64,000 bases of DNA from Candidatus Poribacteria bacterium (GTDB lineage: Bacteria > Poribacteria > WGA-4E > PCPOR2b). The notes beneath the pieces were generated by a model. The model saw only the letters and a list, made by a program, of their open reading frames with translations, ran no database searches and was not told where the DNA came from. The DNA is taken from assembly GCA_028819845.1 (NCBI GenBank), contig JAPPKS010000027.1, positions 248,001 to 312,000 on the forward strand. The letters run 5' to 3'. Positions 2,629 through 55,470 of the stretch are shown here, piece by piece. Within the stretch, counting starts at the first letter, position 1; each line of letters starts with the position of its first letter. Position numbers and translations under genes: made by a program.

Positions 2629-3282
2629 GTGGTAAAAGACGGTTTGTTAATTACTTTTGAGGGTATGGAAGGTTCAGGAAAAACGACGCAAATTCAACGG
2701 CTGTCCGCGGTTCTCAGTCAAGCGGGCTATGCCGTGTGCGTTACACGTGAACCGGGCGGGACACCCATATCGGAGGAAATTCGCGGCATCTTCTTGAATC
2801 CCAATCACAACGAAATGGAATCAACGACGGAGTTGCTATTGATTGCCGCGGCGCGGGCGCAACATGTGTCCGAGGTTATTTTACCCGCATTGGATGGTGG
2901 GAAGATTGTTATCTCCGATCGATACTCGGACGCAACGGTCGTTTACCAAGGCTATCGGTGCGGATTGGATTTGAATCTGATTCATAAGCTAAATCGTATC
3001 GCGGCACACGGCTTGTCACCGGAACGCACCTTTGTGTTAGATTTGCCGGTAGAAATCGGCTTAAAACGTGTGCAGCAGAGAAGGAGTGCGATGAATCGTT
3101 TGGATTTAGAGGATTTCGAATCTCACAATCGAATCCGCGAAGCCTATCTTGCGATCGCAAGTCAAGAGCCTGATCGCATTACCATAATTGATGCCGAAGC
3201 AAACGTGGATAGCATACATGAATTGATTAAGTCGGAAGTAGACGACTTATTGCGAACGAAGGGAGTGGAACGTAAACTGTAA
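2629..3282 (+). CDS. tmk: Thymidylate kinase
   Basis: dTMP kinase phosphorylates dTMP to dTDP for DNA synthesis. The 217-residue length is typical. The P-loop (EGMEGSGKTTQ, residues 11-21) is intact, the SDRYSDATVVYQG segment matches the family's DRY and YQG signature, and a basic LID-like stretch lies near residue 150. The start is GTG with an AAGGTGA ribosome site a few bases upstream. The next gene, holB, begins 26 bases later, a common tmk-holB pairing. Two further Tmk-like proteins occur at 53877 and 54739. This copy has the canonical motifs and is the likely housekeeping enzyme. Confidence 0.95.
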   Translation: MVKDGLLITFEGMEGSGKTTQIQRLSAVLSQAGYAVCVTREPGGTPISEEIRGIFLNPNHNEMESTTELLLIAAARAQHVSEVILPALDGGKIVISDRYSDATVVYQGYRCGLDLNLIHKLNRIAAHGLSPERTFVLDLPVEIGLKRVQQRRSAMNRLDLEDFESHNRIREAYLAIASQEPDRITIIDAEANVDSIHELIKSEVDDLLRTKGVERKL

Positions 3283-50008: not shown

Positions 50009-51091
50009 GTGGGAAATACCTTCGGTCATCTTTTTCGTATCACGACGTGGGGCGAATCACACGGCGATGCCATTGGCGTTGTGGTTGATGGATGCCCGCC
50101 GCAACTGAAAATCGACGCTACTGCCATTCAGGCGGAACTCAATCGACGCCGTCCGGGACAGAGCTATCTTACAACTCCACGACAAGAATCGGATGCGGTG
50201 CAGATTTTATCAGGCGTATTTGAGGGCCAGACGCTTGGGACTCCAATCTCAATGCTGGTATGGAACAAGGATGCGAAGCCTTCAGCCTACAAGCACCTCA
50301 AGGACATTTATCGACCGTCACATGCGGACTTCGCCTATCGTCAGAAGTACGGCATCCACAACTGGCAGGGAGGCGGCCGGGCGAGCGCACGCGAAACGAT
50401 TGGACGAGTCGCGGCGGGCGCAATTGCAAAACAGATATTGCGTGAGCAGTGCGGCACGGAAATTCTCGCGTACGTAAAACAGATTCAAACAATCGCCGCC
50501 GATGTCGATTCGGATAAGGTGACCCTTGATGCGATTGAATCCAGCATTGTTAGATGTCCAGACTACGAGGCTAGTGAGCAGATGGAGCGACGCATTGATG
50601 AAGCGCGGCGAGACGGCGATTCGCTCGGGGGGATTATTGAGTCGGTGTCGCGGAACGTCCCGATTGGACTGGGAGAGCCGGTGTTTGACAAACTCAAGGC
50701 AGATTTGGGCAAGGCGATGATGTCCCTGCCGGCAACAATGGGTTTCCAAATCGGGTCGGGTTTTGAAGGCGTGACAATGACCGGAGCGCAGCATAACGAT
50801 TTATTTTACACTGATAAAGGGCGTATCCGCACGCGGACGAACAATTCTGGCGGCACGCAAGGTGGCATTTCAAATGGCGAGAATATCCGTCTGCAGGTGG
50901 CTTTTAAACCGACGGCGACAATCCGCAAGGAACAGGAAACGGTGGACATCCATGGCAACCCGGTTGTTTTGTCCGCACGCGGGCGGCATGATCCGTGTGT
51001 GCTGCCTCGTGCCGTGTCGATAGTGGAGGCAATGGTTTCGCTAGTACTGGTCGATCACTTCTTGCGACAGCGTGCTAAGAAATTTGAATAA
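50009..51091 (+). CDS. aroC: Chorismate synthase
   Basis: Last step of the shikimate pathway, converting EPSP to chorismate using reduced FMN; 360 residues. The signatures [28 protein letters not shown] and [17 protein letters not shown] are present, as is the C-terminal [12 protein letters not shown] with its conserved His and Arg. The start is GTG with GGAGG 7 bases upstream; this places the family's usual GNTFGHLFR opening right at the start. The next gene begins about 20 bases later. No other aromatic-pathway gene lies in the window. Confidence 0.97.
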
Positions 51092-51112
51092 TAGGTAAAT
51101 ACGTTCATTAAA

Positions 51113-51376
51113 TTGATATCATTAACGGCGCTTCAATGGCGCGTGGAAGCGGAATGGTTTCGCGTTGCCGCCGCTTTGTCAATCTGCGTCAATATGATTC
51201 TCGCCGCCACCATTGGAGCAGTCATTCAGATGCTTTTGAAGCGGATACGGATTGGCAGTGCTTTTGCGACAGGGTTATTCGTCTTGACCTTAATCGATAT
51301 AATACGTACTTATCTTCATCATAGCGCATGCCTATCTCTATTGAGTTGGAAACCGGCTGTTGACCGTTGGCAATAG
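51113..51376 (+). CDS. Possible small membrane protein
   Basis: An 87-residue frame starting at TTG with two hydrophobic stretches (about 16-40 and 46-64). It fills the gap between aroC and the ROK kinase on the same strand. The ribosome site is weak and no family is recognised, so it may be a chance frame. Confidence 0.3.
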   Translation: MISLTALQWRVEAEWFRVAAALSICVNMILAATIGAVIQMLLKRIRIGSAFATGLFVLTLIDIIRTYLHHSACLSLLSWKPAVDRWQ

Positions 51377-51388
51377 GAGCGGAGCGAA

Positions 51389-52426
51389 ATGAATAATACA
51401 CGAGCACGATTCCCGGAAATGCTCTCTTCCAATGAATATGTCGTCGGTGTAGATATGGGCGGCACAAAGATTTTGGCGTCGGTCGTGAATGCGGCGGGAA
51501 GAATAATATCTCAATCGAAAACCGCTACGAAGGCAGATAAGGGTCCGCATGAAGTGATAAATCGGATTGCTCAGTGTATCCGAAATGCGATTGATCGAAC
51601 GGGGATGGAATCCCCTCAGATTCAGGCAATAGGGATTGGCGCACCGGGACCGCTAGATCCGGATACAGGTGTTGTTATCTTTGCCCCGAACCTCGGCTGG
51701 TCGAATGTACCTCTCAAGGCAAAACTTGAAGCAAGTATGGGTATTCCGACATTCGTCGAAAACGATGTCAATCTATGTACATTAGGGGAGTCGGCTTCCG
51801 GGGTTGGGCTTGGGGTCAAATCCCTCGTTGGGATTTTCGTTGGTACCGGAATCGGCGGCGGGATAATTTTAGATGGCAAGCTGTTCCGTGGCGCAAGTGA
51901 TACAGCCGGTGAAGTGGGTCACATTATCGTCAAATCAGACGGTCCGCGCTGCGGTTGCGGAAACCTAGGGTGTTTGGAAGCTGTTGCGAGCCGTACAGCC
52001 ATTACGCGGCAGCTACGAAAAGCGATACTCAAAAATGGGAAGAGGAGCATTTTGCTAAAGTTGAACGGCGGAAATTTAGGTTTGATTCGCAGCAGTACCT
52101 TAGCAAAAGCAGTACGCCGCGGTGACAAGTTGACGGCGAAAGTGATGCGCCGAGCTCAGAATTATCTGGGTATCGGGGTTGCTTCAATCATAAATTTCTT
52201 AAACCCCGAGATGATCGTGCTGGGGGGAGGACTTATCGAAGCGATGGGAGACGGTTTTCTGGATGGCATCCGCAGCACGACGGCGAAACACGTATTGCCG
52301 AGTACGATGGACGGTGTCCAAATCGTAGGCGCTGAACTCGGCGACAACGCGGGCGTCATCGGCGGCGCAGTTTTGGCGCGCCAGATGTTAGGAGAAGACA
52401 TAACGCCGCCGCAGCGTGACGTTTAG
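51389..52426 (+). CDS. ROK-family sugar kinase, glucokinase-like
   Basis: Cytoplasmic sugar kinase of 345 residues. The ATP-binding loop G-V-D-M-G-G-T-K (20-27) is intact. The catalytic region ENDVNLCTLGE and VGTGIGGGIILDGKL follow, then EVGHI and the ROK zinc motif C-G-C-G-N-L-G-C-L-E near residue 188. There is no helix-turn-helix domain, so it is an enzyme rather than a ROK repressor. GGAGCGGAGCG precedes the ATG. Glucose is the commonest substrate of this group, but N-acetylmannosamine and others are possible. Confidence 0.9.
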   Translation: MNNTRARFPEMLSSNEYVVGVDMGGTKILASVVNAAGRIISQSKTATKADKGPHEVINRIAQCIRNAIDRTGMESPQIQAIGIGAPGPLDPDTGVVIFAPNLGWSNVPLKAKLEASMGIPTFVENDVNLCTLGESASGVGLGVKSLVGIFVGTGIGGGIILDGKLFRGASDTAGEVGHIIVKSDGPRCGCGNLGCLEAVASRTAITRQLRKAILKNGKRSILLKLNGGNLGLIRSSTLAKAVRRGDKLTAKVMRRAQNYLGIGVASIINFLNPEMIVLGGGLIEAMGDGFLDGIRSTTAKHVLPSTMDGVQIVGAELGDNAGVIGGAVLARQMLGEDITPPQRDV

Positions 52427-52553: not shown

Positions 52554-53072
52554 ATGGACTGGAATGTCACCTTGCAATTAGCCGTATTGTTAATTGCTTA
52601 TATAGGTGGAATTGGTACTATCGGCTATTACATCACCAATGCGCTGGGAAAGCGGGTTGATGATTGCGGCAAACGAATAGAGGATGTCAGCGTCTCACTT
52701 GGCAATCGGATAGACGATAGCAGCAGGTACACAACGGATCTCGGTGACTCACTTGGCAAACGGATTAAGGATGTCGGTGACTCACTCGGCAAACGGATTG
52801 AGGATGTCGGTGACTCACTCGGCAAACGGATAGACGATAGCAACAAGCACACATCGGATCTCGGTGACTCGCTCGGCAGTCGGATAGACGATTTGCGTAG
52901 TGATATGGCATCTCAACTTAGCGCTTTTCGAGAAGAAATGAAATTAATGCGAGAGGAACTGAAAGAAATCCGAGAAGAAATCCGTGGCGACATGAGAGAA
53001 ATCCGAGATGAGATGCGGAAGAATAATGAGTTGCTCATAACTCACATAAGCGACCATACGCTACATAACTAA
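52554..53072 (+). CDS. Membrane-anchored hendecad coiled-coil protein, copy A
   Basis: A 172-residue protein of unknown function. Residues about 5-28 (VTLQLAVLLIAYIGGIGTIGY) form one membrane helix. From about 31 to 125 come 11-residue repeats of the form D-S-L-G-K-R-I-x-D-V-G, then a heptad-type charged coil (EEMKLMREELKEIREEI) to the end, HISDHTLHN. The 11-residue period suggests a right-handed coiled coil, likely oligomeric and extending from the membrane. AGGAAG lies about 9 bases before the ATG. The neighbour at 53153 is a paralogue. I do not recognise a named family. Confidence 0.8.
   Translation: MDWNVTLQLAVLLIAYIGGIGTIGYYITNALGKRVDDCGKRIEDVSVSLGNRIDDSSRYTTDLGDSLGKRIKDVGDSLGKRIEDVGDSLGKRIDDSNKHTSDLGDSLGSRIDDLRSDMASQLSAFREEMKLMREELKEIREEIRGDMREIRDEMRKNNELLITHISDHTLHN
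52743..52841 (+). repeat. Three 33-base direct repeats within copy A
   Basis: Units at 52743, 52776 and 52809 each begin GGTGACTCAC and continue GGCAAACGGAT. Each encodes one 11-residue repeat. Near-identity at DNA level points to recent expansion or recombination. Confidence 0.85.
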
Positions 53073-53152: not shown

Positions 53153-53671
53153 ATGGACTGGAATGTCACCTTGCAATTAGCCGTACTTGTTATTGCTTAC
53201 ATCGGTGGAATTGGTACTATCGGTTATTACATCACAAACGCGTTGGGAAAGCGGGTTGATGATTGCGGCAAGCGGATAGACGATCTCGGCAACTCACTCG
53301 GCAAGCGGATAGATGATCTCGGCAACTCACTTGGCAAACGGGTTGAGGATGTCGGTGACTCACTCGGCAAACGGATAGACGATAGCAACAAGCACACATC
53401 GGATCTCGGTGACTCGCTCGGCAGTCGGATAGAGGATTTGCGTAGTGATATGGCAACTCAATTTAGCGTTTTTCGAGAAGAAATGAAAGTAATGCGCGAG
53501 GAAATAAAAGAAACGCGTGAGGATTTGAAAGAAATCCGAGAAGAATCCCGCGAAGAAATGAAAGAAATCCGAGAAGACATCCGTGGAGACATGAGAGAAA
53601 TCCGAGATGAGATGCGGAAGAACAATGAGCTACTCATAACTCACATTAGCGACCACACCCTACATAACTGA
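53153..53671 (+). CDS. Membrane-anchored hendecad coiled-coil protein, copy B
   Basis: A 172-residue paralogue of the previous gene, 80 bases downstream. The first 38 residues, with the membrane helix, and the last 28 residues are nearly identical to copy A. The middle differs: more N-S-L-G-K-R-I-D-D-L-G units here and an extra REDLKEIREESREEMKEI stretch, yet the total length is the same. The promoter-proximal bases (TCGCGCACCAAG before the ribosome site) are also shared, so the duplication included upstream DNA. Expression from the copy A promoter or its own is possible. Confidence 0.8.
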   Translation: MDWNVTLQLAVLVIAYIGGIGTIGYYITNALGKRVDDCGKRIDDLGNSLGKRIDDLGNSLGKRVEDVGDSLGKRIDDSNKHTSDLGDSLGSRIEDLRSDMATQFSVFREEMKVMREEIKETREDLKEIREESREEMKEIREDIRGDMREIRDEMRKNNELLITHISDHTLHN

Positions 53672-53876: not shown

Positions 53877-54590
53877 ATGAACATGTTAAAACAACCTCAT
53901 CCGTATCCCGGAAGGCTCTTTGTGGTTGAGGGAATTGACGGTTCAGGAAAGAGCACACAATTAGACCTTTTGCGAAAGTGGTTAGTGTCCGAAGGCTATA
54001 GTGTGTTTTACACGGAATGGAATTCCTCTCCCCTCGTGAAGCAGACTACCCGGAAAGGAAAAAAGAGGAATTTGCTAACCCCGACGACATTCAGCATTAT
54101 GCACGCGACTGACTTCGCTGATCGGTTGGCAAATATGATTATTCCGCCACTAGAAGCAGGGATGATTGTGATGTCTGACCGTTATGCTTTTACGGCATTT
54201 GCGCGAGATGTTTCCCGTGGAGTCCATCCGGACTGGGTAAGAAATCTGTATTCCTTCGCTGTGAAACCAGACATAGCGTTTTATTTCAAAGTTTCGATTG
54301 ATGTGTCCATTAAGCGAATTAGGATAGGGCGCGGAAAGCTCAAATTTTACGAGGCGGGAATGGATCTCGGTTTAAGTGAAGATTCGACGACCAGTTTCAA
54401 AATCTTCCAGGGCCGCGTTCTCAAAGAATACGATCGATTGGCGACTGAATATGGATTGACAGTGGTTGACGGCAGCGGACCAATTGACAAACAGCAGGAA
54501 CTTGTACGTGAAGTTGTACGGAAGGCATTGATTGACTATGATAAGCATCATCAACCCATGGGGCTTGAGCGATTTCAGAAGGAAACGTAA
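53877..54590 (+). CDS. Thymidylate-kinase-like protein A
   Basis: A P-loop kinase of the dTMP kinase superfamily, 237 residues. The Walker A G19-I-D-G-S-G-K-S-T27 is intact, and SDRYAFTAFARD corresponds to the D-R-Y motif of dTMP kinase without the usual Y-Q-G. Distinctive segments are TEWNSSPLVK, HATDFADRLANMIIPPLEAG and YEAGMDLGLSED, all shared with the next gene. AGGAGG lies 6 bases before the ATG. It differs from the canonical tmk at 2629, so its substrate may be another nucleotide or not a nucleotide at all. Confidence 0.8.
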   Translation: MNMLKQPHPYPGRLFVVEGIDGSGKSTQLDLLRKWLVSEGYSVFYTEWNSSPLVKQTTRKGKKRNLLTPTTFSIMHATDFADRLANMIIPPLEAGMIVMSDRYAFTAFARDVSRGVHPDWVRNLYSFAVKPDIAFYFKVSIDVSIKRIRIGRGKLKFYEAGMDLGLSEDSTTSFKIFQGRVLKEYDRLATEYGLTVVDGSGPIDKQQELVREVVRKALIDYDKHHQPMGLERFQKET

Positions 54591-54738
54591 CCTCTGGTTC
54601 TCCCGTTCTTCATGAACTCATCGGTTTGGGAAGTTAATGAGAATTGTACGTTTAGACCATCGCCCAAGAGGCGTTGAAAAAGTTTTTTGGCTGTAGATGG
54701 CGCTATCGACTTGGACCCAACTGCGCAAGGAAAAACAG

Positions 54739-55470
54739 ATGAAAGATCGGATGTTCTACGGTAATGGTATGCCGTACCTTGATGTGAGCGATTTGTCCGG
54801 CAGATTAATTGTAATTGAAGGTACTGACGCGGTTGGCAGATCGACACATATTGAGGGCGTCGATAGCCTAGGCAAGCCGACGTTGAGCGACAATTTGACG
54901 AAATGGCTTGAGGTGAAAGGTTATGGCGTGGTGAATACCGGATGGACGCGCTCGCCGTTATTGGGCCCAGCAATTGACTCAGTGAAGAAAGGCAATACCT
55001 TAAACCAGATTACTTTCAGTGTCTTGTATGCCGCTGATTTTGCCGATCGACTGGAAAATGTGATAATTCCGGCGCTCAAAGGCGGATTTATCGTTCTTGC
55101 GGACCGTTATATGTACACTGCCTTTGCACGGCATATCGTACGCGGCATCAATCCAAACTGGCTTCGCGAAGTTTATGGCTTTGCGCTAATACCGGATCTG
55201 GTAATCTACTTGAGGATTGGCGTCGAGGATTTGATTCGGCGTACTTTTGAATCCGGGCGCAGCATGAGCTACTGGGAATCGGGCATGGATATTGGACTCT
55301 CAGGGGATGTGTATGAGAGCTTTGTGCGGTATCAAACTCGAATCATTCAAGAATTTGACAGAATGACCGACGAATTTGGTTTTACAGTGGTTGACGCGTC
55401 TCGCAGCATTGAAGCGGTGAACCAAGACCTTAAGACTGAGATTGAAAAATTCCTCGCCGCTTCTGGGTAA
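54739..55470 (+). CDS. Thymidylate-kinase-like protein B with two degenerate P-loops
   Basis: A paralogue of the preceding kinase, about 243 residues, sharing TGWTRSPLLG, YAADFADRLENVIIPALKGG, ADRYMYTAFARH and WESGMDIGLSGD. The P-loop is doubled. EGTDAVGRSTHI (residues 27-38) has Arg for Lys, and directly after it EGVDSLGKPTLS (39-50) has Pro for Ser after Lys. Both departures suggest weak or absent catalysis. I chose the ATG at 54739, with AAGGAA 6 bases upstream, over an ATG at 54697. It may pair with protein A as a regulatory subunit. Confidence 0.78.
   Translation: MKDRMFYGNGMPYLDVSDLSGRLIVIEGTDAVGRSTHIEGVDSLGKPTLSDNLTKWLEVKGYGVVNTGWTRSPLLGPAIDSVKKGNTLNQITFSVLYAADFADRLENVIIPALKGGFIVLADRYMYTAFARHIVRGINPNWLREVYGFALIPDLVIYLRIGVEDLIRRTFESGRSMSYWESGMDIGLSGDVYESFVRYQTRIIQEFDRMTDEFGFTVVDASRSIEAVNQDLKTEIEKFLAASG

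Follow-up and report, generated by a model that had tools for sequence, protein, structure and literature searches.

The question raised by this locus is why a kinase-like gene should carry two imperfect P-loops in immediate succession, next to a paralog with a normal one, and which of its features, if any, marks it as the altered partner of a two-subunit enzyme. The window, by which we mean the whole 64,000-nucleotide stretch of DNA that was analyzed, comes from a Poribacteria genome that is 96.6% complete and whose nearest named relatives are Candidatus Poribacteria. Gene B (54739..55470, + strand) encodes a Tmk-fold protein of 243 residues (assigned from its translation; PF02223, E 9.5e-20) whose Walker A is of the Arg type and whose loop is doubled, residues 27–50 reading EGTDAVGRSTHI and then directly EGVDSLGKPTLS (54817–54888), as the initial annotation had noted. 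Loop 1 (54817..54852, +) lies at the predicted P-loop position and, like other B proteins, has Arg in place of the Walker Lys, while loop 2 (54853..54888, +) is a 36-base tandem copy of loop 1 that is predicted to bulge from helix 1. The upstream partner of B, gene A (53877..54590, +), is a paralog that carries the loop EGIDGSGKSTQL and has a canonical Walker A (GIDGSGKST). The description of B as having Arg for Lys in one loop and Pro for Ser in the other, beside a paralog with a normal P-loop, was thus correct by translation. BLASTP aligned B with A at 42% identity over the aligned part with a single gap, the 12 residues of B that constitute the second loop. A second in-frame ATG for B is present at 54697; M1 of B is invariant in a 55-row alignment.

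The Arg substitution is old and family-wide. A contig scan of genomes yielded 101 relatives, and the best 80 of these loci were kept; counts for B are based on n=81 (the best 80 of 101 plus the window) and those for A on n=78 from the same sample, L029, L035 and L078 being without a full-length A. The best 80 of the 101 loci are mostly labeled Nitrospirota, the other labels being Deltaproteobacteria, Proteobacteria, Binataceae, Ignavibacteriae, Bacteroidota, Firestonebacteria, Armatimonadetes, Verrucomicrobiae and Poribacteria (MAGs), and three of the Poribacteria loci (L017, L018, L072) coincide with the genes of the phylum genomes G012, G009 and G014 and were counted once. For alignment, rows similar at a ratio of at least 0.93 were removed, leaving 55 of the 81 B and 47 of the 78 A proteins, with 45 B proteins in a further alignment (A3). 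In the 81 B proteins (best 80 of 101 plus the window) the Walker A motif invariably reads GR and never the canonical GxxxxGK[ST], whereas all 78 readable A proteins of the same sample have GKST. The presence of Arg in every B protein of this sample indicates that the change from Lys characterizes the family and is not a local defect. Two more B genes of the phylum (in G114 and G115) have the Arg and are without the insertion. In the 55 aligned B rows the loop 1 columns D30, G33 and R34 are invariant, as are the DRY motif and the P-loop Asp, and the FADR arginine is nearly so. Every one of the 81 loci (best 80 of 101 plus the window) has A, complete or in fragments, immediately upstream of B and on its strand. 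With the start taken at the first Met that lies 15–32 residues ahead of the loop, A and B have overlapping frames in 72 of 78 loci (e.g. L025; median overlap 53 bases), which suggests translational coupling in most lineages; in the window the two are separated by a 148-base gap.

By sequence, A and B belong to a Tmk-like subfamily that is closest, among solved structures, to Sulfolobus tokodaii ST1543, deposited as a dTMP kinase (PDB 2plr, 4nzy, 4rzx, 5h70). In profile searches against the PDB this protein was the best match of both, at 1.9e-56 for B (next 1.5e-19) and 1.6e-75 for A (next 4.3e-18), which places both closer to it than to the structures of ordinary Tmk, and like A and B it has the TAYARD signature after DRY, i.e. 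ARD after DRYxYTA; in window B the ARD position reads ARH. Unlike window B, ST1543 has one Lys-type P-loop, GSGKSS, with no insertion in the aligned chain. With ordinary bacterial Tmk (TIGR00041), A and B have in common the fold, the DRY motif and the phosphate-binding Arg. In ordinary Tmk, a Tyr-Gln pair after the DRY motif serves in thymine recognition. This pair is absent from all 78 A and all 81 B proteins (best 80 of 101 loci plus the window): A has Arg-Asp in 78 of 78, as does ST1543, and in each of the 81 B proteins Arg is combined with a second residue that is Asp, Asn, His, Ala or Ser. Ordinary bacterial Tmk, by comparison, lacks the Walker Arg of B and has Tyr-Gln in place of the Arg-Asp of A and the corresponding residues of B. 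Might A and B nevertheless simply be redundant dTMP kinases? Both match the Pfam family Thymidylate_kin (PF02223; 71.5 bits for B and 81.2 for A, against a gathering threshold of 27 bits), both come just under the TIGR00041 dTMP kinase equivalog cut-off of 83.25 bits (80.4 for B and 81.8 for A), and their closest solved structure bears that name. We nevertheless consider redundancy very unlikely, in view of those same scores under the cut-off, the replaced base-recognition residues, and the ordinary Tmk-like gene that the window genome already has (2629..3282, +), which retains YQ (as YQG) after its DRY motif.

In contrast to the Arg, the doubled loop is a young, local and lineage-specific insertion, separate from it in origin. 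It was looked for in the best 80 of 101 loci and in 84 genomes of the phylum. Loop 2 was found in 3 of the 81 B proteins (best 80 of 101 plus the window), those of the window and of two species of the Poribacteria genus g5, and is an insertion relative to the other 78. Six of the 84 phylum genomes have a B gene, three of these six with the insertion, and an A-type match was found in all six, in G114 on another contig. The nearest relatives of window B are doubled as well, while the remaining B proteins have a loop that is single and, with its Arg, not intact, which argues against a defect confined to the window. The initial proposal of an altered partner subunit is supported in part, by the Arg, which is constant in the 81 B proteins of the sample beside a canonical A on the same strand; the doubled loop, as a later insertion in three of them, is not the alteration.

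The 36-base tandem duplication itself was borne out. The two DNA copies are identical at 24/36 and 28/36 bases in the two g5 genes (shuffle p 5e-5 for each), which makes a tandem-duplication origin firm, and at 16/36 in the window (shuffle p 0.012), where the protein copies still give a shuffle p of 5e-5. Among the 12-residue segments of B that lie clear of loop 2, loop 1 is the best match to it (BLOSUM score 26, next 14). In a tree built without the insert, the three inserted B proteins group as one clade with moderate support (SH-aLRT 90, below the 95 mark), and their matching A genes do so at 85. The copied unit has a repeated AT(T/C)-GA(A/G)-GG at either end, suggestive of slippage or unequal recombination. 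Gene conversion from A was considered as the source of loop 2 and set aside as less probable, because in g5 the DNA of loop 2 resembles loop 1 more than the A loop (24 vs 18 and 28 vs 20 of 36 bases). In the window the corresponding identities are 16/36 to loop 1 vs 17/36 to the A loop, and at the protein level loop 2 scores slightly higher against the A loop than against loop 1 in all three genes (29 vs 26, and 34 vs 33 twice).

Since the duplication, loop 2 looks constrained within g5 and strongly divergent between g5 and the window, on small numbers of changes. Between the two g5 species it has undergone five synonymous and no nonsynonymous changes (p ~0.001 for five of five silent, if three quarters of changes would alter the protein). 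Between the window and g5, 12 nonsynonymous changes have accumulated and 7 of its 12 residues differ, so that its pN is 0.44 vs 0.15 for the rest of the gene (Fisher p 0.0005), while loop 1 keeps the family consensus. One could suppose that window B is a decaying or broken gene, given how strongly its loop 2 differs from that of g5. This is scarcely credible for a gene whose open frame is intact, which is 74% identical to its relatives, retains the invariant residues of the family and has a pN/pS of 0.23 over its whole length (window vs L017). Purifying selection thus appears to act on B as a whole.

The pattern in loop 2 also bears on the idea that a Lys-type Walker A was restored by the duplication to a family without one and that loop 2 is now the working P-loop, with loop 1 bulging out. 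In g5 the second loop is a canonical GxxxxGKST (GTNESGKST) and continues into helix 1, its base differences between species are all silent, and the residues common to loop 2 of both genera include the Walker A G, G, K and T, for which the chance is about 0.01 for a set of residues picked after the fact. The window version, GVDSLGKPT, has Pro for Ser, and the constancy of loop 1 as well as the high pN of loop 2 are difficult to reconcile with this idea. AlphaFold models of the window and g5 B proteins (mean pLDDT 86.9 and 85.5) both show a strand at residues 22–27, a P-loop at 28–33, a helix at 34–39, an irregular segment at 40–52 and a helix at 53–59, an order that puts loop 1 in the P-loop position and has loop 2 interrupt helix 1; the alignments behind the models contained the insert in only 3 of 55 and 3 of 45 rows, which biases them toward loop 1 as the P-loop. 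Confidence is low in block 41–50, with a pLDDT of 62 in the window model and 72 in the g5 model, and the best fold match of the B model is again ST1543 (Z 25.8, 34% identity). Most likely, loop 1 still serves as the structural P-loop, and the extra loop is an insertion into helix 1 whose use is uncertain; a working loop 2 seems to us rather improbable.

A different possibility is that B has kinase activity of its own, with Arg standing in for Lys, and that the insertion is close to neutral. Its Walker Arg is strictly conserved, as expected of a working residue, and the DRY motif, P-loop Asp and FADR arginine described above have been kept. On the other hand, Lys is retained at this position by all 78 readable A proteins (best 80 of 101 loci plus the window), and the presence of Lys in every A and Arg in every B of the same gene pair implies that the residues of A and B are not interchangeable. 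A Lys-to-Arg change in Walker A usually cripples phosphotransfer, though the change in B is no proof of a loss of activity. We regard an active B as possible but doubtful.

The gene neighbors suggest a setting for the pair. In counts that rest on a simple open-frame caller, BLAST clusters named in Pfam terms from their representatives and flanks of limited length, and that are dominated by Nitrospirota, a Ppx/GppA cluster was found near the pair in 69 of the 81 loci (best 80 of 101 plus the window), a histidine-phosphatase cluster (PF00300; SixA-like is our label) in 47, a CHAD cluster in 14 and a ROK cluster in 7; looser clustering gave 73 loci for Ppx and 53 for the phosphatase. Ppx neighbors also occur in loci from Poribacteria (L017, L018), Deltaproteobacteria-labeled genomes, Ignavibacteriae, Bacteroidota and Firestonebacteria. 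No Ppx was seen in the stretch examined in 12 of the 81 loci, including the window (L001), another from Poribacteria (L072), both from Armatimonadetes and the one from Verrucomicrobia; the Ppx/GppA gene of the window genome is on another contig. A SixA-PPX-dTMP kinase-CHAD gene cluster is described for biomining archaea in PMC10892726, and a distinct crenarchaeal (Sulfolobus) PPK-type enzyme is mentioned in PMC13318637, which cites Hofmann et al. 2026 (J Biol Chem). Genes of the kinds in this crenarchaeal cluster also surround the bacterial A/B pair. The distinct PPK-type enzyme of Sulfolobus may be the product of a Tmk-like gene, possibly an archaeal relative of A.

Whether the pair substitutes for known polyphosphate kinases was considered in 32 of the 80 pair-bearing genomes, chosen for diversity. 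PPK1 was found in 10 of these 32 and PPK2 in 23, whereas 22 were without PPK1, 9 without PPK2 and 5 without both, in genomes for which completeness was not given. The pair is therefore not simply a replacement for these enzymes, with which it often coexists, and replacement as a rule is unsupported in these 32 genomes. The window genome has no match to PPK1 (PF02503) or PPK2 (PF03976), A and B included, and no PPK family was assigned to A or B in a Pfam scan, whereas PPK2 is present in 76 of 82 genomes of its class. This absence is in favor of a role in polyphosphate metabolism, but one genome proves nothing. Class II PPK2 of Pseudomonas aeruginosa, according to PMC8776046, combines one catalytically inactive and one active domain, and PPK2 folds resemble thymidylate kinase. 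In outline, this combination of inactive and active domains of Tmk-like fold resembles the A/B pair and by analogy could be a precedent for how the pair works, although PPK2 belongs to a different family and has its domains fused, while A and B are separate genes.

We propose, with a probability of about 0.5, that A and B constitute a Tmk-derived kinase pair in polyphosphate or phosphate metabolism, in which A is catalytic, B is an Arg-type partner and loop 2 is a lineage-specific duplication; the link to polyphosphate we infer from the gene neighbors. With its intact Walker A, A is likely the catalytic kinase of the pair. The Walker Lys of B would have changed to Arg ahead of the spread of the family across several phyla, and B probably still binds nucleotide or polyphosphate, transfers phosphate poorly, and shapes or regulates A in a putative A-B complex. 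In the common ancestor of the window and g5 genes, a 36-base duplication of the P-loop codons of B would then have added another loop where helix 1 begins, leaving loop 1 conserved at the structural P-loop position, while loop 2 presumably gained its Lys and has since stayed unchanged as protein between the two g5 species and become strongly different between g5 and the window. A more elaborate version is a long shot: the duplication would have given the altered, Arg-type subunit an extra phosphate-binding loop with a re-created Walker Lys (intact in g5), serving as an additional nest for a polyphosphate chain or as a two-site phosphate switch, with the active Tmk paralog as the other subunit of a polyphosphate kinase.

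Searches of the open-access literature brought up no paper that we recognized as treating either the bacterial A/B pair or a Tmk-like protein whose P-loop is doubled. Few motifs in biology are as strongly conserved as the P-loop, so that a kinase fold which tolerates a second, tandem copy amounts to a natural experiment in the choice between the two. A pair that is found in several phyla, matches dTMP kinase models and combines a canonical with an Arg-substituted member beside polyphosphate genes is a candidate two-subunit phosphate enzyme under the wrong annotation, in Nitrospira as elsewhere.

Within its phylum the pair is patchy, B being present in only the six genomes noted above and in one of nine genomes of the window's own family, a distribution that suggests loss or transfer. 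A ROK-family kinase gene (PF00480; 51389..52426, +) lies upstream of the pair in the window and likewise in the Poribacteria loci L017, L018 and L072, with 61% identity in L017. The order chorismate synthase then ROK is common to the window (50009–52426) and L017 (3–3012), with the Ppx of L017 between the two genes and missing from the window at that point, where tblastn with the L017 protein gave no convincing match to a remnant (best E 2.0). In L017, L018 and L072, A follows ROK, with no frame of at least 90 codons called between them. In the window, the ROK gene and A are separated by two tandem genes (52554–53072 and 53153–53671) for coiled-coil-like proteins of 172 residues, each with an N-terminal hydrophobic stretch, that are identical to each other at 101 of 172 positions.
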